In this document: positions 28,998-39,348 of the stretch, in pieces | Position numbering within the stretch: position 1 is the stretch's first letter | How the letters are laid out: each line of letters begins with the position of its first letter | Source: Bifidobacteriaceae bacterium | Lineage (GTDB): Bacteria > Actinomycetota > Actinomycetes > Actinomycetales > Bifidobacteriaceae | DNA: 39,492 nt | Reading direction: 5' to 3' | NCBI GenBank assembly: GCA_022649925.1 | Contig: JALCOX010000010.1 | Span: 1 to 39,492, forward strand | Translations under genes and position numbers: made by a program | The notes under the pieces: model-generated | Told to the model about the DNA's origin: nothing | The model's input: the letters and a program-made list of their open reading frames with translations, nothing else | The model's database searches: none

Positions 28998-29033
28998 TTC
29001 TTTTGCTGAATGCACACCGACGAAGGAGTCGAT

Positions 29034-30389
29034 ATGGGCACAGGTCCACTATTGGTGGTGCTACTCATCGCCATCGCATTGATTATTTTCTTGATCATAA
29101 AAATCAAAATGCATGCCTCGATGGCGCTGCTCATTGCAGCCTTCTTCGTGGCATTCGTCACCCAGGTACCACTCGAAAAAATAACTGACACTATCGAAAA
29201 GGGTGTCGGGGACACTCTCGGATTCCTCACTCTCATCATCGGGTTCGGAGCGGTTCTTGGAAAACTCCTGGAGATCTCAGGAGGCGCCCAGCGCCTCGCC
29301 TCCACAATGCTCAAGACCTTCGGAAAGAAACATGCCACAGTCATCATGGCTCTCCTGGGCCTCATCTGCGGCATTCCAGTTTTCGTCGAGGTCGGCTTCG
29401 TTCTCCTTGTTCCTCTCGTTTTCGTGGTGGCCAAAGAGGCGGGAATCTCTCGCATCAAAGTGGGTATTCCCTTGGCGACGGCGCTCATGGTTGTCCATTG
29501 CATCCTCCCTCCCCATCCCGCAGCAACCGCCATTGCTGGAACTCTGCACGCAGACATCGGCATGGTCATTCTGCTCGGTCTGTGCGTCGCCATCCCCTCG
29601 CTGCTCATCGGTGGTCCTTTGTACGCGCACTTCGCTATTCCCACGCTCGACACAGATCTTGAGACTACAAAGGGCGAATCCTCCGAGCTAGCACTTACCT
29701 ACAACGAGAAGGATGAAAAGGATCTACCCGGATTCGGCATCACACTCTTCACTATTCTCCTGCCTTTGCTCATCATGGTGGTTCGCACCATCTGCGAGCG
29801 CACCCTCCCTGCGGACCTCGTTGCGATGAAATGGATCAACGTTATTGGCAACCCGATTACGGCATTGCTCATCTCTGTTCTCTTTGCCTACTTCTCATTG
29901 GGACTCCACCGCGGCATGAAACTCGACGCACTCCAAAAACTCACCGACGGCTCATTTGGCCCCATTGGAGGAATCCTGCTCATCATCGGTGCCGGCGGTG
30001 CCTTCAACGCAGTTCTCACTGCATCCGGTGTGGCTCCCGGTCTTGCTGATGCACTTTCCAATCTGCCGGTGAGTCCTATCATCCTGGCGTGGCTTATCGC
30101 TCTGGTACTCCACTTCGCAGTAGGCTCCGCAACAGTTGCAATGATTAGTGCAGCGGGAATCGTACTGCCAATGCTTTCTGCCAACCCGAGTCTTTCACCA
30201 GAACTGCTCGCATTGGCAATCGGCGCCGGTGCTATTGGCTTCACCCACGTCACCGATTCGCTCTTCTGGATGGTGAAGGAATACCTACACATCAGCGTTC
30301 CACAGGCACTCAAGACGCTGACAGTAGGCACTACCATCACCTCGGTAGTGGCGCTCGGCATGACCCTGCTCCTCAGCATCTTCATCTAG
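29034..30389 (+). CDS. dsdX: GntP-family permease, probable D-serine transporter
   Basis: This 451-residue protein of the GntP (gluconate:H+ symporter) family has about 12-14 hydrophobic segments. Family text includes [68 protein letters not shown] and [16 protein letters not shown]. DsdX, the known D-serine member, belongs to this family. The gene lies 50 bases ahead of D-serine dehydratase on the same strand, so D-serine or a similar D-amino acid is the likely cargo. GGAG five bases before the ATG at 29034 favours this start over the in-frame one at 29010. Gluconate cannot be excluded on sequence alone. Confidence 0.88.
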
Positions 30390-30439
30390 CACACAGAAAA
30401 TCACACTCAACCAATTACCATCATCACAAAGGAGTAACT

Positions 30440-31792
30440 ATGGTAAAACTCATCGCAGGCAAGTCCATCGAAGAATGGACTCAGGAATTCCCGCTCCTCA
30501 CCGATCTCATGAACTGCAAAGAGACCACATGGTTCAACACGAAACTGGAGCCAACGCGCCAAGCACTACCAGATGTGGGTCTCACTGCTAAGGACATTGA
30601 TGGTGCGGCCGACCGTCTCAAGCGCTTTGCACCCCTCATCGAAGAGCTATTTCCCGCCACTAAAGTGACAGAAGGCATTATCGAATCCCCGCTCGTCGCA
30701 GTTCCCGACCAACGCATTGCACTCGGAGAGCGATACGGCTCGACGATGCCCGGTCAACTGTGGGCAAAGTTGGATTCCGAACTGCCGATCTCCGGCTCCA
30801 TCAAAGCTCGTGGCGGCATCTACGAAGTACTCAAACACGCTGAGGACCTTGCAATAGAGGCAGGACTCCTGAGCTTCTCCGACGACTACAGGAAACTCGC
30901 CACTCCCGAAATGAAAAAATTCTTCGGTCAATACAAAATCGCCGTCGGTTCCACCGGTAATCTCGGCCTCTCTATTGGCATCATGAGCGCCGCACTCGGG
31001 TTTGACGCCTCAGTGCATATGTCCGCAGATGCACGTCAATGGAAGAAAGATAAACTGCGCGCAAACGGAGTGCATGTTTTCGAGTATGAGGACGATTATT
31101 CAGTAGCAGTCGCAGCTGGTCGCAAGGAATCTGAATCCGATCCAAACGCCTACTTCGTCGACGACGAGAACTCCCCGACGCTCTTCCTGGGCTATGCCGT
31201 CGCTGCACGTCGCTTGGCAGGTCAACTCAAAACCTACGATATTCGTGTCGACGAAGACAACCCGCTCTTCGTCTATCTGCCCTGCGGCGTTGGCGGCAGT
31301 CCCGGCGGAGTCGCCTTTGGTCTCAAAACCGTCTTCGGCGACAACGTCCACTGCATCTTCCCGGAGCCCACGCACTGCCCCTCAATGTTTATCGGCGTCT
31401 ACACCGGCAAGCACAACGAAGTAAGCGTCAACGACTTCGGTATCGATAACGTCACTGCGGCCGATGGACTCGCCTGCGCGCGTCCCTCACGCTTCGTCGG
31501 GAAAGCCATGGAGCATCTGCTCGACGGTTTCTTCACTATCGATGACGACGAGCTGTACCGCATCGAGGCAAGTCTGCATAACACCACAGGAATTGATATC
31601 GAGCCCTCCTCCGCCGCCGGTTTCGTTGGGCCATGGCGTGTTCTTGCCGATAGAGAATACCGAGAGCGCCTCAACTTAGACGAGCAAAAAATGCGCCATG
31701 CGACACATATCTCCTGGGTAACCGGTGGATCCATGGTTCCCCGCAATGAGATGGCAGCCTATATTGAGAAGGGCAACGCACTACTTCGATAG
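30440..31792 (+). CDS. dsdA: D-serine dehydratase DsdA
   Basis: This PLP enzyme deaminates D-serine to pyruvate and ammonia. The PLP lysine is K122 in SGSIKARGG, matching K118 of E. coli DsdA. The glycine-rich phosphate loop is GSTGNLGLS (170-178). [26 protein letters not shown] and [13 protein letters not shown] are further DsdA-specific stretches. At 450 aa it is close to the 442-aa E. coli enzyme. AAAGGAG lies about five bases before the ATG. It is co-transcribed with the permease. D-serine is toxic to many bacteria, so the pair can serve detoxification or carbon and nitrogen supply. Confidence 0.95.
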
Positions 31793-31824
31793 AGCACTCG
31801 CTTCAGCAGGAAATTGACAAGCAA

Positions 31825-31863
31825 GGAGACGGCTCTTACGAATTCGCGTAGGAAGCCGTCTCC
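31825..31863 (+). other. long hairpin between dsdA and the regulator gene
   Basis: GGAGACGGCT (31825-31834) and AGCCGTCTCC (31854-31863) pair perfectly, and inner TACG/CGTA can extend the stem after a small internal loop. No T-run follows. It starts 32 bases after the dsdA stop. It may stabilise the dsdX-dsdA message or damp read-through into the regulator gene. Confidence 0.6.
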
Positions 31864-31883
31864 GTCTCTATCAGAGGTGACAG

Positions 31884-32666
31884 ATGAGCCCGACCGAAAA
31901 AATGGTAGCGAATAAATGGGAACCTCATGACTTCGCAAACTTCCTCGAATATTATGGTCAAGTGACCACAAAACGATCTTCCTCGTCCCGGGACGAAAAA
32001 AAGAAGGATGCAGAATACATCCGTCAATTCATTCCGTTCGTCAAATTCCTCGGTGAGGTCCTCGGATCTCAAACGGAAGTAGTTCTTCACAACGCTTCAC
32101 AACCAGATAAATCCGTCGTGGCCATCGCCAACGGTCACGTTTCGGGAAGAACTGTCGGGTCTCCCGCTACTGATCTCATGCTCAAGGTCATGAAGGATGG
32201 AATCTCGGCCAATAAGGACTACGTGGTGGGGTACGAGGGGAAAACTCGTCAGAGCAAATACAACCTTCTCTCGTCCACCTACTTTATCCGTCGCAATAAC
32301 CGCATTATTGGAACACTGTGCATCAATTCTGATCAGACACCACTCCACGCTTTACAGCAGGCGGTCAACCTCATTTCGCACTCCTATTTTCCCGAGACCG
32401 AGGAAAACTCGGAGGATGATTCACCCCAGGAAGAAAATCTCATCGCGTCCGTGGAGGACATCGCGACGCAAGTCATTGCGGAAATGAGCACCTGGACCGG
32501 CGTGACTCCAACGAAATTGAGTGCCGAACAGCGTCTCACCGTCATTCGGGAACTGTGCGATCGTGGATATTTCAACTTCAAGGGCGCTATCGCAAAGGTT
32601 GCCAAGCAGCTTAATATATCGGAGTCCACCGCGTACCGATATCTCAGAATGGTTCAGGAAGAGTAG
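31884..32666 (+). CDS. YheO/DauR-type transcriptional regulator
   Basis: This 260-residue protein has a PAS-like YheO domain (about 50-170: IPFVKFLGEVLGSQTEVVLHN, then GNPATD-like GSPATDLML and IIGTLCINSD) and a C-terminal helix-turn-helix. The latter spans about 218-257 (RLTVIRELCDRGYFNFKG, then AKQLNISESTAYRYLRMVQ). This layout is that of DauR, the repressor of D-arginine use in Pseudomonas, and E. coli YheO. It follows dsdA by 91 bases and precedes the deformylase-like gene by 9. AGAGG six bases before the ATG supports this start; an ATG at 31902 is an alternative. It probably controls the D-serine operon, possibly at the inverted repeat near 28986. The ligand is unknown. Confidence 0.87.
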   Translation: MSPTEKMVANKWEPHDFANFLEYYGQVTTKRSSSSRDEKKKDAEYIRQFIPFVKFLGEVLGSQTEVVLHNASQPDKSVVAIANGHVSGRTVGSPATDLMLKVMKDGISANKDYVVGYEGKTRQSKYNLLSSTYFIRRNNRIIGTLCINSDQTPLHALQQAVNLISHSYFPETEENSEDDSPQEENLIASVEDIATQVIAEMSTWTGVTPTKLSAEQRLTVIRELCDRGYFNFKGAIAKVAKQLNISESTAYRYLRMVQEE

Positions 32667-33263: not shown

Positions 33264-34019
33264 TCAAATATTCCTAAAGTACGAGAAGAACTCCTGCGTC
33301 TCCTTGCGCATGGAATGGTCCATGACCTCGGCGGGAGTACCGTATTCGGCCACCACGCCGTCCTGGAGCAGCACCACCTTGTCGGCGGCCTTGTGCGCGA
33401 AGCTCATCTCGTGGGTGGCCATGAGAATCGTCGCCCCCTGCTCCTTGATTTCCTCGACCATTCCGAGCACCTCGCCCACGAGCATGGGGTCGAGCGCGGA
33501 GGTGATCTCGTCGAGCAATAGGAGCTCCGGCCCAGTGAGAAGTGCACGCACAATGGCGACGCGCTGCTGCTGACCGCCAGAGAGCTGGTCCGGGTACGCG
33601 CCGGCCTTGGCCTCCATGCCGATGCGCTCCAGCAGCTCCATGGCGCGACTTTTGGCCTTGGCGGCAGGCCAATGGTGCACCTCGGTAGCGGCGAGTGTGA
33701 CGTTTCGCAAAACACTCATGTGCGGGAAGAGGTTGAACTGCTGAAACACCACGCCGATTCGAGAGCGTATGGCGTCCTGATTGGCCTTGGGATCGGTGAT
33801 GTCTGTGTCGCCCAGCCAGATTTGACCGTCGTTGACGCGCTCCAACAGGTTGACGCACTTCATGAGCGTGGACTTGCCCGAACCGGATGGCCCCAAAAGC
33901 GCCACCACCTCGTGCGGCTGAATGTCGAAGGAAACACCCTTCAGCACCGACGGCCCGTTTTTACCGTACGACTTCTTGACGTTATCTACCCGCAGAACCG
34001 GATTCTCACCTGCGCTCAT
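33264..34019 (-). CDS. polar amino acid ABC importer, ATP-binding protein
   Basis: This 251-residue ATPase of the HisP/GlnQ class energises uptake by the permease encoded just upstream. The Walker A is GPSGSGKS (43-50), the Q-loop VFQQFNLFPH (91-100), the signature LSGGQQQR (146-153) and the Walker B LLLLDE (166-171) followed by ITSALDP. MATHEMSFAH contains the H-loop. The ATG overlaps the permease stop (ATGA). It is last in a three-gene importer operon. Substrate class follows from the solute-binding protein; the exact amino acid is not known. Confidence 0.94.
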   Translation of the reverse strand: MSAGENPVLRVDNVKKSYGKNGPSVLKGVSFDIQPHEVVALLGPSGSGKSTLMKCVNLLERVNDGQIWLGDTDITDPKANQDAIRSRIGVVFQQFNLFPHMSVLRNVTLAATEVHHWPAAKAKSRAMELLERIGMEAKAGAYPDQLSGGQQQRVAIVRALLTGPELLLLDEITSALDPMLVGEVLGMVEEIKEQGATILMATHEMSFAHKAADKVVLLQDGVVAEYGTPAEVMDHSMRKETQEFFSYFRNI

Positions 34020-34882
34020 ACCGCACCTCCGCTCAACTCACGCTTGCGCAACCTATCCGAATACCAGTCGTTGAGAATGATGAACGGAATGCTCAGAAGG
34101 ATGAAGAGAACGCTGGCGACGACGTATGGCGTGAAATTGTACGAAGTGGCGACATCGATCTGGGCGGCGCGCACCGCATCGACTGCCCCGAGAACCGAGA
34201 TGAGGCCGACGTCTTTCTGCATGGAGATGAAGTCGTTCATCAGGGCCGGCGCGACTTTGCGGAGGGCTTGGGGAATGATGACGAGGCGCAGGGTTTTGCC
34301 CACCGACAGGCCCAGAGACCTGGCGGAGGCGCGCTGCGAGGGATGAATGCTCTCAAGGCCTGCGCGCAACACTTCGGCAACGTAGGCGGCATAGCCGAGA
34401 ATGATGGCGATCGTGCCGAGAATGGCGGGGTCGATGCGCCCGGGGAAGATTGCGAGGCCGGGGATGCCGAAGCCAATGAGATAGAGAATGACGATCATCG
34501 GGATGCCACGCATCACCGTTGTGTAGAGAATCGCCAGCATTCTCAAGGGAAAGAGGATGGCGGAGCGCGAGGTGCGCAGCAGCGCGATCACGACGGAGAG
34601 GATGGCGACTCCCACGACCGCGTAGAGGAGAACCTGAACGTTGAGCCAGAGTCCAGCCAGCACGTGTGGCAGGGACGACATGAAGTACTGTCCCGAGAAA
34701 AACGACTCGCGAACTCTGGACCAGCCCGGCGACATTCTCAGCCCGACGACGATGACGGCTGCGAGAACGAGCGAGCTGACGATGCTGGTAACGACTGAAC
34801 GGATGCGCTCGTTGCGGCGTGTAGCTCTTCGTTCGAGCTCCACGCCGCTGACGGCGTCGGACGATTCGATGATTTCGCTCAC
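34016..34882 (-). CDS. polar amino acid ABC importer, permease
   Basis: This 288-residue inner-membrane permease is of the HisM/GlnP type. A basic, Arg-rich N-terminal tail precedes one helix at about 29-50. The core holds the family pattern AGLWLNVQVLLYAVVGVAILSVVIALLRTS, RGIPMIVILYLIGFG and the EAA loop AEVLRAGLESIHPSQRASARSLGLSVGKTLRLVIIPQALRKVAPALMNDF. The GTG start lies 10 bases after the binding-protein stop, and the stop overlaps the ATPase start by 4 bases. A single permease gene suggests a homodimeric channel. Confidence 0.94.
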   Translation of the reverse strand: MSEIIESSDAVSGVELERRATRRNERIRSVVTSIVSSLVLAAVIVVGLRMSPGWSRVRESFFSGQYFMSSLPHVLAGLWLNVQVLLYAVVGVAILSVVIALLRTSRSAILFPLRMLAILYTTVMRGIPMIVILYLIGFGIPGLAIFPGRIDPAILGTIAIILGYAAYVAEVLRAGLESIHPSQRASARSLGLSVGKTLRLVIIPQALRKVAPALMNDFISMQKDVGLISVLGAVDAVRAAQIDVATSYNFTPYVVASVLFILLSIPFIILNDWYSDRLRKRELSGGAV

Positions 34883-34892
34883 CCGACTATGT

Positions 34893-35756
34893 TTACTTCA
34901 GCTCAGTGACATCTGTGGTGTACTGGGCGAGCCACTTGTCTTGCAGCTTCTTCAGGCTGCCGTCCTTGCGCATGGAGTCAAGCGCGGCACTGACCTTCTT
35001 GGTGAGCTTGGAGTCCTTGGGCAGGACAATTCCGAGGCCGTCGGGCTCTTCGGATCCGGCGATGCGACCCAGAACCTTGGCGGACTTGACCTGATTGGAA
35101 TCCACGATGTAGACGCTCTCGACAGTGGAGGTGGCGAGCGCGTCGATCTGACCGGCGTCGAGCGCCTGAGCCAGGGCGGCATCGTCATTGAAGGTCTGAA
35201 CATTCTGGTTGATGTGCTTCTTCACCTGCGTATATGCGGGCGTGCCAACCATGGCACCGACGGTTGCGTTCTTGAGGTCCGCGAGGCTCGTCGCGGTGGC
35301 GTACTTAGAGTTCTTCTTCACCACGACGGAGGTGGTGTCGTTGTAATAGCTGGTAGAGAAGTCGACGGCCTTCTTGCGTTCAGGCGTCACGGAGAACTGC
35401 TGGATGTTGAGATCCCAGTCCTTGGCTCCGGGCGCGATGGCGGCATCGAAGGAGGTGCGCGTCCACTTGACGTTCTTCTTTGCGAATCCGAGCTTTTCCG
35501 CAACCTTGTAGGCAATTGCCGCCTCAAAGCCTTCGCCAGTCTCTGGCTTGTTGTTCATCACCCACGGTTCATACGCCGGATTGCCCGTGGCGATGGTCAG
35601 GGTACCTGGGTTCACCGTCTGCTGCGTGACATCGCTCGTGCTGGCGTCGGACGACGTCGGGCCTGAACCGCACGCCGCCACAGACAACGTGAGAGCACCT
35701 GCTGCAACAAGTGCCGCTGCGCCGCGAAGCGCCTTCGTAACCGAATGTGAGAACAT
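34893..35756 (-). CDS. polar amino acid ABC importer, solute-binding lipoprotein
   Basis: This 287-residue binding protein is of the SBP_bac_3 family. A lipoprotein signal (basic SHSVTKALRG, then a hydrophobic run) ends in SVAAC with the lipidated cysteine at C29, and a Ser/Thr-rich linker follows. The mature part shows EGFEAAIAYKVAEKLGF, VDFSTSYYNDTTSVVV and VGTPAYTQVKKHI, as in glutamine/arginine/cystine binders. The ATG at 35756 has GGAGG six bases upstream, so the longer frame to 35819 is rejected. LspA from this window would process it. The ligand is not predictable; the upstream methyl-cycle-like operon makes a sulfur amino acid one guess. Confidence 0.93.
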   Translation of the reverse strand: MFSHSVTKALRGAAALVAAGALTLSVAACGSGPTSSDASTSDVTQQTVNPGTLTIATGNPAYEPWVMNNKPETGEGFEAAIAYKVAEKLGFAKKNVKWTRTSFDAAIAPGAKDWDLNIQQFSVTPERKKAVDFSTSYYNDTTSVVVKKNSKYATATSLADLKNATVGAMVGTPAYTQVKKHINQNVQTFNDDAALAQALDAGQIDALATSTVESVYIVDSNQVKSAKVLGRIAGSEEPDGLGIVLPKDSKLTKKVSAALDSMRKDGSLKKLQDKWLAQYTTDVTELK

Positions 35757-35777
35757 TCCAATCCTCCTCGTAGATTG

Positions 35778-35796
35778 GCGCATCCCGCAGATGCGC
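35778..35796 (-). promoter_or_regulatory. 7-bp inverted repeat in the leader of the importer operon
   Basis: GCGCATC (35778-35784) and GATGCGC (35790-35796) are perfectly complementary around CCGCA, 22 bases ahead of the binding-protein start. It may be an operator or an mRNA hairpin next to the GGAGG. Confidence 0.4.
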
Positions 35797-35879
35797 TCCA
35801 CCACACCATAGCGTGCCACGTATCAGAGCGCACCCCTGTCGTTATCGGAACTGCTGATAGCACGCGATAAAAAATACTG

Positions 35880-36479
35880 CTACTCAAGCGAGAAGCCGTC
35901 GAAAACGAAGCCCGGCGAGACCATACACGACACCAGAGCGTCCGTCTGGCTCGGGATCGTCCGCTGCCACACACCCGCCGGAACAATCGCGTGCCCCGCG
36001 GCTGTGAGATAGCTCACGCCCTCCGTGACCTGTGTGGTCGCCTTTCGCGCGTCTTCGGAATCACGGCCCGCCTGAACGCCCAATTCCACGACGCGCTCAA
36101 GGTGAGGCGCACTCCCCGTTCCACCGAAACCGAGCTTCACTGTACCAGGACCATGCCACAGCCACACTTCGTCAGCGTCCACCTTGTGCCATTCGCTGTA
36201 ATCACCCGCCGGCAACAAGAAGTAGATCAGCGAGGCAAACGGCCGGGCGCCCGTAGCGGAGCCTTGGTCACCGAGTGCGGCGTCCTGCGCCGCGTGCGCC
36301 GTGGTGTGCGGCGACTGCCAGTCCCTGCGGAACCAACCACCCTCGGGATGCGGGGCGAGATTGAGATCTGAGATGGTGGCCCGGGCGTAGTCACTGAGGC
36401 GAGCGTCGGGATGGTGAACCGGAGACGGAAGCGAGTCAAAGTTGTCCGTGGAGCCTTCAGCGTCAGGTGCGTTCGTCAT
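35880..36479 (-). CDS. cupin, DUF985 family
   Basis: This 199-residue single-domain cupin is of the DUF985 (Cupin_5) family. The hallmark NLAPHPEGGWFRRDWQS is near residues 40-56. The metal-binding strands include FASLIYFLLPAGDYSEWHKVDADEVWLWHGPG (two histidines and a glutamate) and HAIVPAGVWQRT. Residues 1-25 look disordered. The ATG overlaps the amidohydrolase stop (ATGA), so it is the third gene of a tight operon. Known relatives bind a metal or sugar-like ligand, but no general function is established. A role in the same pathway as the two enzymes upstream is inferred from coupling. Confidence 0.88.
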   Translation of the reverse strand: MTNAPDAEGSTDNFDSLPSPVHHPDARLSDYARATISDLNLAPHPEGGWFRRDWQSPHTTAHAAQDAALGDQGSATGARPFASLIYFLLPAGDYSEWHKVDADEVWLWHGPGTVKLGFGGTGSAPHLERVVELGVQAGRDSEDARKATTQVTEGVSYLTAAGHAIVPAGVWQRTIPSQTDALVSCMVSPGFVFDGFSLE

Positions 36480-37897
36480 TTTTCATCCTCCACACTCTGC
36501 TCGGCTGGCGACGTCTCAATGTCTTCGAACGCGGCGTCGTTGTAGACGAGCCGGCCCGAGATGACGGTCGCGCGATTCGAGCCACCGCCGTCGCGGACGA
36601 AGCGCTCCAGCGTCTCCTCGATGCCTCCGGGGCTGAGAACGTCCGTGGACACATCGAAAAACGCGAGATCCGCGCGCGCGCCGGCATTGATTTGACCGAT
36701 TCTGTCGGGACCGACATTGAGACCCATGGCCTCCGCTCCCCCGAGGGTGAGCATGCGGATGAGGCGATGGGAAAGATCGGCCTGATCGTAACCCTGTGCG
36801 CGGGCCAGATCGAAGAGCTCGGAGCAGTCGTCGAGAACGTCGAGACTGGGAGAGCTCGAGAGTGAATCGGTTCCGATGGAAACGAGATTGCCCTCGCGCA
36901 GATAATCCGCGATGGGAGCCTCGCTCATCGTCGACGTGATGCGATTCGACCGCGGGCACAGGGCAACGCTGACGCCGCGCTGACGCAGGAGACGACGGTC
37001 CTCCTTGTCTGCGTACACGCCGTGGGCGATATGCACGTCGGGCCCGAGCGCCCCCAGCTGATCGACGAACTGGATGGCGGAGGCTCCGAAGCCGTGCTTC
37101 TTCAAGTCCCTGTAGCTTTGCCACTCGTTGTTCTGCCACTCCACACCCGTGTACGTCGTGAGATCGGCGGGGCGCGTACCTCGCTCAAGTGGAGTTTCAC
37201 CGAGGTGAATGTGCAGACGCATTCCCACGCGTCGGGCGATGTCCGGCATGTCGAGGAAGGGCTCGGATTCCAGGGAATACGGCGCGTGCGGGCTGATGCC
37301 GACGGACTCGAGACCCATGTCCGAGATCGCGGTCAGCCGCTCGACGAGCCTGCGCTTACCCTCGGCGCGCCACTGCTCGTTGGACCAATCCATGATCTCC
37401 CAGTAAGCGACCCCGCGCAGCCCTTGCGAGCGCAACGCCCCAATGGCTTCGATGTTGGTCACCACATCCGCCGCGGCTGTCGTCCCCGCCTCGACGAGCA
37501 TTCGGGCACCTTGATCGGCAGAATCCCTCCAAATGCTCGCCGGCTCACGCACCAACGCATCGTAGACCTTGTTGAAACCGAGCTCCCACCCGCGAAAATC
37601 CGCGTAGTCACCTGCTCCCACACTCGCCATGTTCGTGTACTGCAAATGCGTGTGCGCGTTGACCAGACCGGGCGTCATGATGCCGTCCCAGTGGCGTTCC
37701 ACCAACCGCAGCCGAGGACCGAACTCCTCCTTCAGCGTGGCGATGACCCACTCCCGTGTTCCGATATTGATGACGCGGCCCTCGTACACCGCCACGGAAC
37801 CGTTGGGAATGACCGGAGCGGTGACAGGTATGACGAGGCGCGCCGAATACACAACGACCTGTGCGCCCCACAGTGCCGTTCCGAAAGCCGGATTCAT
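36476..37897 (-). CDS. amidohydrolase, nucleoside/aminofutalosine deaminase-like
   Basis: This 473-residue metal-dependent amidohydrolase belongs to the group with SAH/MTA deaminases, aminodeoxyfutalosine deaminase and TrzN-type enzymes. Metal ligands are H82 and H84 (NAHTHLQY), H229 (HIHLGET, with E234), H292 (AHGVYADKED) and D344 (GTDSLSSSPSLDVL). SPHAPYS (202-208) and CPRSN (314-318) are typical of purine-nucleoside-type deaminases. The ATG overlaps the SAHH-like stop (ATGA), and its own stop overlaps the cupin start. The pairing suggests it deaminates or hydrolyses an adenosyl or deoxyadenosyl compound. The substrate is an inference from family and neighbours; no menaquinone gene is adjacent to support a futalosine role. 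Confidence 0.87.
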   Translation of the reverse strand: MNPAFGTALWGAQVVVYSARLVIPVTAPVIPNGSVAVYEGRVINIGTREWVIATLKEEFGPRLRLVERHWDGIMTPGLVNAHTHLQYTNMASVGAGDYADFRGWELGFNKVYDALVREPASIWRDSADQGARMLVEAGTTAAADVVTNIEAIGALRSQGLRGVAYWEIMDWSNEQWRAEGKRRLVERLTAISDMGLESVGISPHAPYSLESEPFLDMPDIARRVGMRLHIHLGETPLERGTRPADLTTYTGVEWQNNEWQSYRDLKKHGFGASAIQFVDQLGALGPDVHIAHGVYADKEDRRLLRQRGVSVALCPRSNRITSTMSEAPIADYLREGNLVSIGTDSLSSSPSLDVLDDCSELFDLARAQGYDQADLSHRLIRMLTLGGAEAMGLNVGPDRIGQINAGARADLAFFDVSTDVLSPGGIEETLERFVRDGGGSNRATVISGRLVYNDAAFEDIETSPAEQSVEDEK

Positions 37898-39348
37898 GCT
37901 CGCTCCTCCCCCTCGTGTTCGCTCGTCATTTCATCCTCGAATCTGCTCAGCCGCCAATCATAGACCTGCGCGTGAGCTGTTGAGGTTGAACATCCCCGGG
38001 CCTCAAGCGCCACGGAGGCGATGTGTCGGTCCGCATCGGCGTCCAGTTGGAGGAGGTGATTTTCCAGCTTCCCTCGGTGCTCGAGCAGATAACCGATGGC
38101 CATGGTTTGCACACCGAAGCTCAGATCCATCACATCGATGGGGTTGCCATTACCAGCGGTGTAGTTGACGCCGTCGCCGTCACTGAGAAGCCGCAACGTG
38201 GGTCCCTGAGGAATATTGATCTGGCTTAAGGGCGACTCCGTGCGCGCAAAACCTGGGATCTCATCGAGTCCAACCTCGTTGGAAATGCCACCGATGACTC
38301 CCACCAAAGCTCCCGAACGCATCTGCTGCAGCGTGGAGAGCGGTACCGTGTGGCGCACACCCGTCGCCGAGATCACCATGTCAACGTGGGGCGCCACCTC
38401 TGAAAGATCGGCCGTTGCGAAGCCGTCGAAAACCGCGCGCAGACTCGCCACCGGATCCGTGTCACACACGGTGACGTGCGCGCCCACCGCGCGAATTCTG
38501 CGCGCAAAGCCCGCTCCGACTGGGCCGTAACCCACCACGGCAACCGAGGAATTCTCGAAAGCCTCCGCGCCCAGAATCTCAAGCATGGTCGTCACGCACG
38601 TCTCGCCCGTCCCGTGGGCGTTGTCAAAGTTTGTTTTGAGCGCGGAATTGTTGACGGCGATCACGGGGAAGGTCAGCGCCCGGTCGCGGTCCATCGCCTC
38701 GAAGGCGCGCACGCCACTGGTCGTCTCCTCGGCGACACCGATGAGGTTCTTCGCCAATTCGGGCCGCTGACTCATGAGAAGTCGGGCGAAGCTGGCACCG
38801 TCATCAATGAGAATGTCAGGGCGAATGTCGTCGAGCAGCTTGAGCGCCTCGTCGCGGCGCCTGCGCGCGGACCACTCCACCTGGGCGGCAACTTCGATGC
38901 CCCTCTTGCGCAATTCCTCAATCACCCGAGGATCTGTCGACTCCCCGTCACAGTAAATGCCGACGATGGCACCCGCCGCAGCCAGTTCTTCGAGGAACAC
39001 GGCGGTCTTGGGTTCAAGGACGATGCTGATGGCAAAGCGCACACCCGCAAGTCTGCCCGTGCGCGCCAGATCGGCGAGGAGGCGTCGGACTACTGGCATC
39101 CTCTTGCGCGCGTGGTCAATCGCCTGCGCCCCGTTCATGGCAAGCAAGCTCAGGCCATCCTCTTCATCGGACGCGTCGAAGACAAAATCAGCCGCCGCAC
39201 GGTCTGACACAAGAATCATTCCCCACTGTTGAGCCTGACTTTTGACGTCACTCGCGGCCGGAGAATCCGGTGGTACGAAGAGTCTCGCACCCGCCAACGA
39301 ACGATTTGTATCCCGAGATACCACCCGCGCCCACTGTGCAAAACTCAT
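37894..39348 (-). CDS. S-adenosylhomocysteine-hydrolase-like NAD-binding protein lacking key histidines
   Basis: This 484-residue protein aligns with adenosylhomocysteinase. It keeps the NAD site (VVGYGPVGAGFARR, GYGPVG 273-278), EETTSG (207-212), IDDG (181-184), and K238, D242 and N243 in NNSALKTNFDN, matching K186/D190/N191 of mammalian SAHH. The GHFDxE histidine (H301) is G354 in IGGISNE. The GHPSFVM histidine (H353) is N402 in GNPIDVM. The LHMT histidine (H55) is replaced in SIVLEPKT (about V110). The adenosine and catalytic site is therefore altered, and normal SAH hydrolysis is doubtful. The ATG at 39348 follows AGGAG at four bases; an extension to 39381 is unlikely. It is first in a coupled operon with the amidohydrolase and the cupin. 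Confidence 0.85.
   Translation of the reverse strand: MSFAQWARVVSRDTNRSLAGARLFVPPDSPAASDVKSQAQQWGMILVSDRAAADFVFDASDEEDGLSLLAMNGAQAIDHARKRMPVVRRLLADLARTGRLAGVRFAISIVLEPKTAVFLEELAAAGAIVGIYCDGESTDPRVIEELRKRGIEVAAQVEWSARRRRDEALKLLDDIRPDILIDDGASFARLLMSQRPELAKNLIGVAEETTSGVRAFEAMDRDRALTFPVIAVNNSALKTNFDNAHGTGETCVTTMLEILGAEAFENSSVAVVGYGPVGAGFARRIRAVGAHVTVCDTDPVASLRAVFDGFATADLSEVAPHVDMVISATGVRHTVPLSTLQQMRSGALVGVIGGISNEVGLDEIPGFARTESPLSQINIPQGPTLRLLSDGDGVNYTAGNGNPIDVMDLSFGVQTMAIGYLLEHRGKLENHLLQLDADADRHIASVALEARGCSTSTAHAQVYDWRLSRFEDEMTSEHEGEERA

Follow-up and report, generated by a model that had tools for sequence, protein, structure and literature searches.

The minus strand of the window, the whole stretch of 39,492 nucleotides of Bifidobacteriaceae DNA that was analysed, carries a tight operon headed by a gene for a protein resembling S-adenosylhomocysteine hydrolase (SAHH), followed by genes for an amidohydrolase, a Cupin_5 protein and the solute-binding protein, permease and ATPase of an ABC importer (Table 1). 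The SAHH-like reading frame starts with an ATG at 39348, with an AGGAG-type ribosome site just 5' of it, and its stop ends at 37894. Promoter and terminator scans gave no signal above chance, and the matches from a plasmid nucleotide search were limited to the ABC ATPase region.

Table 1. Features of the window referred to in the text
Feature	Position	Strand	Remarks
SAHH-like protein without the three histidines, 484 aa	37894..39348	minus	SAHH substrate and NAD domains
N-terminal extension of the SAHH-like protein	39258-39348	minus	FxxWARxxSQxTNRSLAG-like motif
Amidohydrolase, TRZ/ATZ / 5'-deoxyadenosine and MTA/SAH deaminase group	36476..37897	minus	Overlaps the SAHH-like gene by 4 bases
Cupin_5 (DUF985/YML079w-like) protein	35880..36479	minus	Overlaps the amidohydrolase gene by 4 bases
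Amino-acid-type extracellular solute-binding protein (SBP_bac_3)	34893..35819	minus	
ABC transporter permease, polar amino acid type	34016..34882	minus	
ABC transporter ATP-binding protein, polar amino acid type	33264..34019	minus	
D-serine utilisation locus	29010-32666	plus	GntP/DsdX-type permease, D-serine ammonia-lyase, YheO-like PAS/HTH regulator

The 484-codon product belongs to the SAHH superfamily: the Pfam domains AdoHcyase and AdoHcyase_NAD both score over their cut-offs (77.6 and 73.1 bits), and the glycine-rich NAD motif and the Lys/Asp/Asn trio are present. It reaches 630.5 bits against the NCBIfam model NF004009 'adenosylhomocysteinase' (PRK05476.3-2; cut-off 485) and is thus a member of that family, and it scores 250.4 bits with the TIGR00936 ahcY model, below the cut-off of 497.6. 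The nearest solved structures found with phmmer are archaeal-type SAHH and S-inosylhomocysteine (SIH) hydrolases (5tov, 3x2e, 7r37 and 7r3a; best E 9.4e-60). An AlphaFold2 model built from an alignment of 33 relatives has a mean pLDDT of 93.8 and a pTM of 0.90. The N-terminal extension is conserved in Bifidobacteriaceae and missing from shorter relatives such as that at locus L107. The D-serine locus is also found beside the cassette in a sister genome (L033).

Active-site residues

SAHH is a textbook enzyme whose histidines are regarded as essential and invariant. The initial annotation had proposed that in the window protein the NAD-binding core is intact, with K238, D242 and N243, and that the three histidines read V110, G354 and N402. 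Counted from the ATG at 39348, the trio lies exactly at these numbers and is invariant, and the NAD/redox machinery is intact; phmmer alignments with 5tov, 3x2e and 7r37 return the same three replacements, which confirms the observation.

Correspondence with mouse SAHH was assigned by motif register. In the mouse enzyme, Glu156 and Asp190 bind the 2'-hydroxyl and Thr157 and Lys186 the 3'-hydroxyl, whereas the 5'-hydroxyl, or the water that attacks, is contacted by His55, Asp131 and His301. Of these, His55 serves as the base when water is added and Asp131 exchanges the C4' proton; His353 touches the nucleobase via its main chain (PMC4647836). All of these ligands other than His55 and His301 have counterparts in the window protein (E208, T209, K238, D242 and D183). 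The positions of His55, the gate His301 and the pocket His353 are V or I, G and N, respectively, in 81 of 81 relatives, in which E112, K114, D183, K238, D242 and N243 are invariant; one additional, more distant member outside the 81 has M at the gate position. Since the patterns used for the wider scan contain an EPKTA stretch, the invariance at positions 110–116 is partly selected, and the unbiased evidence consists of positions 354 and 402, which are unaffected, together with 29 Bifidobacteriaceae genomes retrieved by a plain protein search. These 29 copies have V or I at 110, G at 354 and N at 402 throughout, with E112, K114, D183, E207, E208, T209, T210, K238, D242 and N243 all invariant.

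The canonical base-reading motif HxTxE(Q) is replaced in the clade by (V/I)xEPK. This retains, as (V/I)xExK with E112 and K114 invariant, the E and K of the HxExK motif, whose bearers prefer SIH and use the K to bond O6 of hypoxanthine (PMC10978960); the catalytic and gate histidines expected of an SIH hydrolase (EC 3.13.1.9) are absent. The suggestion that the substrate pocket had been remade therefore needs to be narrowed: with an invariant hypoxanthine-reading pair the base pocket is not simply remade, and it is the water-handling site at the 5' end that has changed. The replacement at 402 is a lesser loss than the other two, because the mouse His353 acts through its main chain, and N402 can still provide such contacts. 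H245 and H333, two candidates for replacement histidines, are conserved in the bifidobacterial group but are Y, I, V or G, A elsewhere in the clade and so, by sequence, do not stand in for the missing roles; no other conserved histidine replaces the lost ones, and the idea that others have taken over, which would have undone the initial annotation, finds no support at the sequence level. Considering that the SIH-type E/K reader and the ribose and NAD residues are kept and the His55 and His301 equivalents are lost, the protein has the appearance of an enzyme that binds a 6-oxopurine ribonucleoside and oxidises its C3' but lacks the two side chains that hold the C5' water.

A separate, maintained clade and its conserved neighbours

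Among 121 Bifidobacteriaceae genomes, 29 carry the SAHH-like gene; the other, weak matches cover the NAD-binding region only. The wider scan found relatives in Leucobacter, Schaalia, Mycobacterium, Nocardia, Mycetocola, Propionibacteriaceae, Rhizobiales, Gammaproteobacteria and a Clostridiales MAG, so that the histidine-less clade reaches at least three phyla, and it is common in gut and vaginal Bifidobacteriaceae. A tree including canonical SAHH and histidine-intact HxExK enzymes places all histidine-less sequences on one side of a single branch with 100/100 support; the replacements define a group of their own, a point on which the initial annotation had called for a family tree. The loss of three textbook catalytic-site residues might point to a decaying pseudo-enzyme on its way out, but the frames are intact in nearly all copies, the V/I-G-N pattern is fixed over several phyla, and dN/dS values of 0.09–0.13 in four pairs indicate purifying selection; this explanation was rejected, and we give it practically no credence. 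The histidine-less group is a maintained, separate clade, and the window gene is a new variant inside a known superfamily. No publication on the histidine-less clade or its operon turned up in literature searches.

In all 29 Bifidobacteriaceae genomes the histidine-less gene is the sole SAHH-family (PF05221) gene. A housekeeping role in SAH hydrolysis was rejected for this family because MTAN and LuxS are present for SAH in all 16 genomes tested. Mycobacterium, Nocardia and others carry the gene alongside a separate, full-scoring SAHH. Compared with canonical SAHH (AhcY, EC 3.3.1.1), with which it shares the fold, the NAD domain and the K/D/N trio, the window protein reads the base with E/K instead of T/E(Q), lacks the three histidines, and belongs to a clade that coexists either with that enzyme or with MTAN plus LuxS.

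In Rhizobiales, Gammaproteobacteria, a Roseateles plasmid and one distant actinobacterium, a histidine-intact, HLEAK-type paralogue is followed in tandem by the histidine-less gene, mostly with a 4-base overlap (L107:7991-10461, L111:7739-10209, L120:3916-6413, L136:365-2853, L172:7748-10260 and, on the minus strand, L171:7903-10913). Such a pair may possibly form a heteromer or act in two steps. It also lends some weight to the view that the protein, itself weak in catalysis, partners an active SAHH-type enzyme as a heteromer subunit or regulator, in the manner of AHCYL1 in animals. AHCYL1/IRBIT is an SAHH-fold protein thought not to hydrolyse SAH. The active partner that an IRBIT-like role calls for is found in the same cell in the tandem-pair genomes but in none of the 29 Bifidobacteriaceae genomes, where the residues are equally conserved and the gene is tied to the deaminase. 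The window protein also differs from IRBIT in its bacterial metabolic operon and its different origin. We consider a weak-partner role very unlikely overall, and the regulatory function that had been offered as one option is unlikely in Bifidobacteriaceae, since there is no second SAHH-family gene to regulate and the link to the deaminase is obligatory.

This link is the most consistent feature of the surroundings. Of the 121 Bifidobacteriaceae genomes, exactly the 29 with the SAHH-like gene also have the amidohydrolase gene, and the remaining 92 all lack it (Fisher p about 1e-28, uncorrected for kinship); in the wider set of taxa the two genes lie near each other at 78 of 80 loci. The curated families closest to the amidohydrolase are the TRZ/ATZ hydrolases and the 5'-deoxyadenosine, 8-oxoguanine and aminofutalosine deaminases; its scores fall far below every one of these cut-offs, so any substrate assigned to it is putative. 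The Cupin_5 gene is present in all 29 genomes and in 14 others. Related genes are clustered at the 28 Bifidobacteriaceae loci that were read, with one contig truncated and one cupin gene some kilobases off.

An importer of the polar amino-acid type is encoded at nearly all bifidobacterial loci. At tandem-pair loci it is often of the sugar type with a LacI regulator, and in mycobacteria and Nocardia it is of the ECF type. Since its type differs between loci, the importer is exchangeable, and it is the SAHH-like gene and the deaminase that stay together. For the same reason, and because the cargo of the ABC family concerned includes ordinary amino acids, the substrate cannot be read from the transporter.

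At 16 loci an MTAN-like nucleosidase is encoded on the opposite strand (L066:12650-13501, L083:12363-13226, L098:8035-8874 and 13 others), and a nucleoside hydrolase takes its place in the Roseateles plasmid operon. The catalytic Asp position of MTAN is Asn in all 15 readable cassette nucleosidases. In purine nucleoside phosphorylases, Asn at that position goes with 6-oxopurines and Asp with adenine; a literature search for this base-specificity rule found no source. The Asn suggests that the cassette enzyme is a 6-oxopurine nucleosidase.

NCBIfam models NF004009 and NF004005, both 'equivalog' models named adenosylhomocysteinase, match the histidine-less proteins well over cut-off. The sequence family is thus already recognised by NCBI models, while its functional name is probably misassigned: neither the active-site residues nor the genomic setting support adenosylhomocysteinase, and the naming is likely a systematic misannotation, with automatic labels probably wrong for this clade in many genomes.

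A proposed route and its alternatives

A distinct clade without the water-step histidines, set among deaminase, transporter and sugar-isomerase-like neighbours, most likely breaks down a different, imported nucleoside. More specifically, we propose that the protein is an NAD+-dependent SAHH-superfamily enzyme that serves the import and degradation of a 5'-substituted purine nucleoside and is not part of the cell's own methyl cycle. This is our preferred explanation, although we give it no better than even odds. The substrate is probably a deaminated 5'-substituted, thio-type nucleoside. The original suggestion of a different thioether or nucleoside-like substrate thus survives in that a nucleoside-like, non-SAH substrate fits the operon.

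Judging from the operon, the ABC importer would bring in an adenosine-type compound whose 5' group resembles an amino acid; a thioether, either SAH or something related to it, is the most likely candidate. The amidohydrolase would convert adenine to hypoxanthine before the SAHH-like step, an order suggested by the presence of this partner, by the E/K base reader and by the nucleosidase with its Asn. E112 and K114 would then bind the base and E208, T209, K238 and D242 the ribose hydroxyls of the deaminated nucleoside; C3' would be oxidised with NAD+, D183 would take the C4' proton, and the 5' group would be expelled by beta-elimination. Substrate binding and C3' oxidation can be strongly inferred from the retained residues, and we have moderate confidence in beta-elimination of a 5' thiol without hydration. 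Because the equivalents of His55 and His301 are V/I and G, water would probably be added poorly or not at all. The hydride would be returned and a 4',5'-didehydro-5'-deoxy nucleoside released, or else a reactive keto-sugar passed on; the nucleosidase or nucleoside hydrolase of many such loci would free hypoxanthine, and the Cupin_5 protein, where present, would isomerise the leftover five-carbon sugar. Action of Cupin_5 on such a product is speculative. An enzyme of this kind would be a natural variant in which the oxidation and elimination half of the SAHH mechanism is uncoupled from hydration, and its operon suggests that imported nucleosides are scavenged by a route not yet described.

Normal hydrolysis could still proceed if water were activated by D183 or an unaligned group. 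The protein would then be a diverged SIH hydrolase: the amidohydrolase would deaminate imported or internal SAH, and SIH would be split in the ordinary way into inosine and homocysteine, with D183 or another group activating the water. The E/K base reader is that of SIH-preferring enzymes, a deaminase is at hand, an arrangement of deaminase plus SIH hydrolase that has also been put forward for M. jannaschii and T. maritima (PMC10978960), and an Asn nucleosidase or nucleoside hydrolase is available to use inosine. Yet all characterised SIH hydrolases among the structure matches, and their relatives in this data set, retain all three histidines and the clade has none. In Proteobacteria and one actinobacterium, moreover, a histidine-intact SIHH-type enzyme is encoded next door, which would make mere SIH hydrolysis redundant; we regard this alternative as possible but rather unlikely. 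The histidine-intact neighbour in Proteobacteria fits a two-enzyme or a heteromeric arrangement equally well. Set against the HxExK-type enzymes of M. jannaschii, P. furiosus and T. maritima, the window protein shares the fold, the NAD site, the ribose-binding residues, the hypoxanthine-reading E/K and a pathway deaminase nearby; it differs in the replacement of all three histidines, its separate clade, the operon with Cupin_5 and an importer, and the N-terminal extension of the Bifidobacteriaceae proteins.

The loss of the 5' water and leaving-group ligands from a site whose 3'-redox centre, C4' acid/base and base reader are intact is also what a non-thioether substrate might leave behind. 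Here 3'-oxidation would serve 3' or 4' epimerisation or base expulsion on a nucleoside that stems from damage, an antibiotic or a cofactor, and the varied importers (amino acid, sugar, ECF) would suit such a range. We think this unlikely, since the polar amino-acid importer at nearly all bifidobacterial loci suggests an amino-acid-bearing substrate and many loci have an MTAN-like partner.

Returning to the elimination route, one extension of it is decidedly a long shot. The yeast Cupin_5 protein Cff1 is needed for making MHF, which mimics AI-2 and probably derives from a sugar (PMC8092285). An NAD-dependent 5'-thionucleoside lyase might produce 4',5'-didehydro-5'-deoxyinosine, from which the nucleosidase would form hypoxanthine and 5-deoxy-pentos-4-ulose, and a Cff-like Cupin_5 would turn the latter into MHF or a related furanone. 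This reading draws on the need for Cff1 and on the formula C5H8O4, which 5-deoxy-pentos-4-ulose shares with its isomer DPD, the precursor of AI-2; on paper the atoms balance. If true, bifidobacteria and Gardnerella would be able to reach AI-2-type molecules from a thionucleoside without LuxS. Cff1/YML079w belongs to the same family as the product of the operon's third gene, and the activity of the bacterial protein is putative.

An importer is also linked to an SAHH-type enzyme in haloarchaea: on a Natronosalvus halobius plasmid (L176:5136-10224), a histidine-intact SAHH relative (HLEQK) adjoins a complete ECF transporter with a QueT-family S component.
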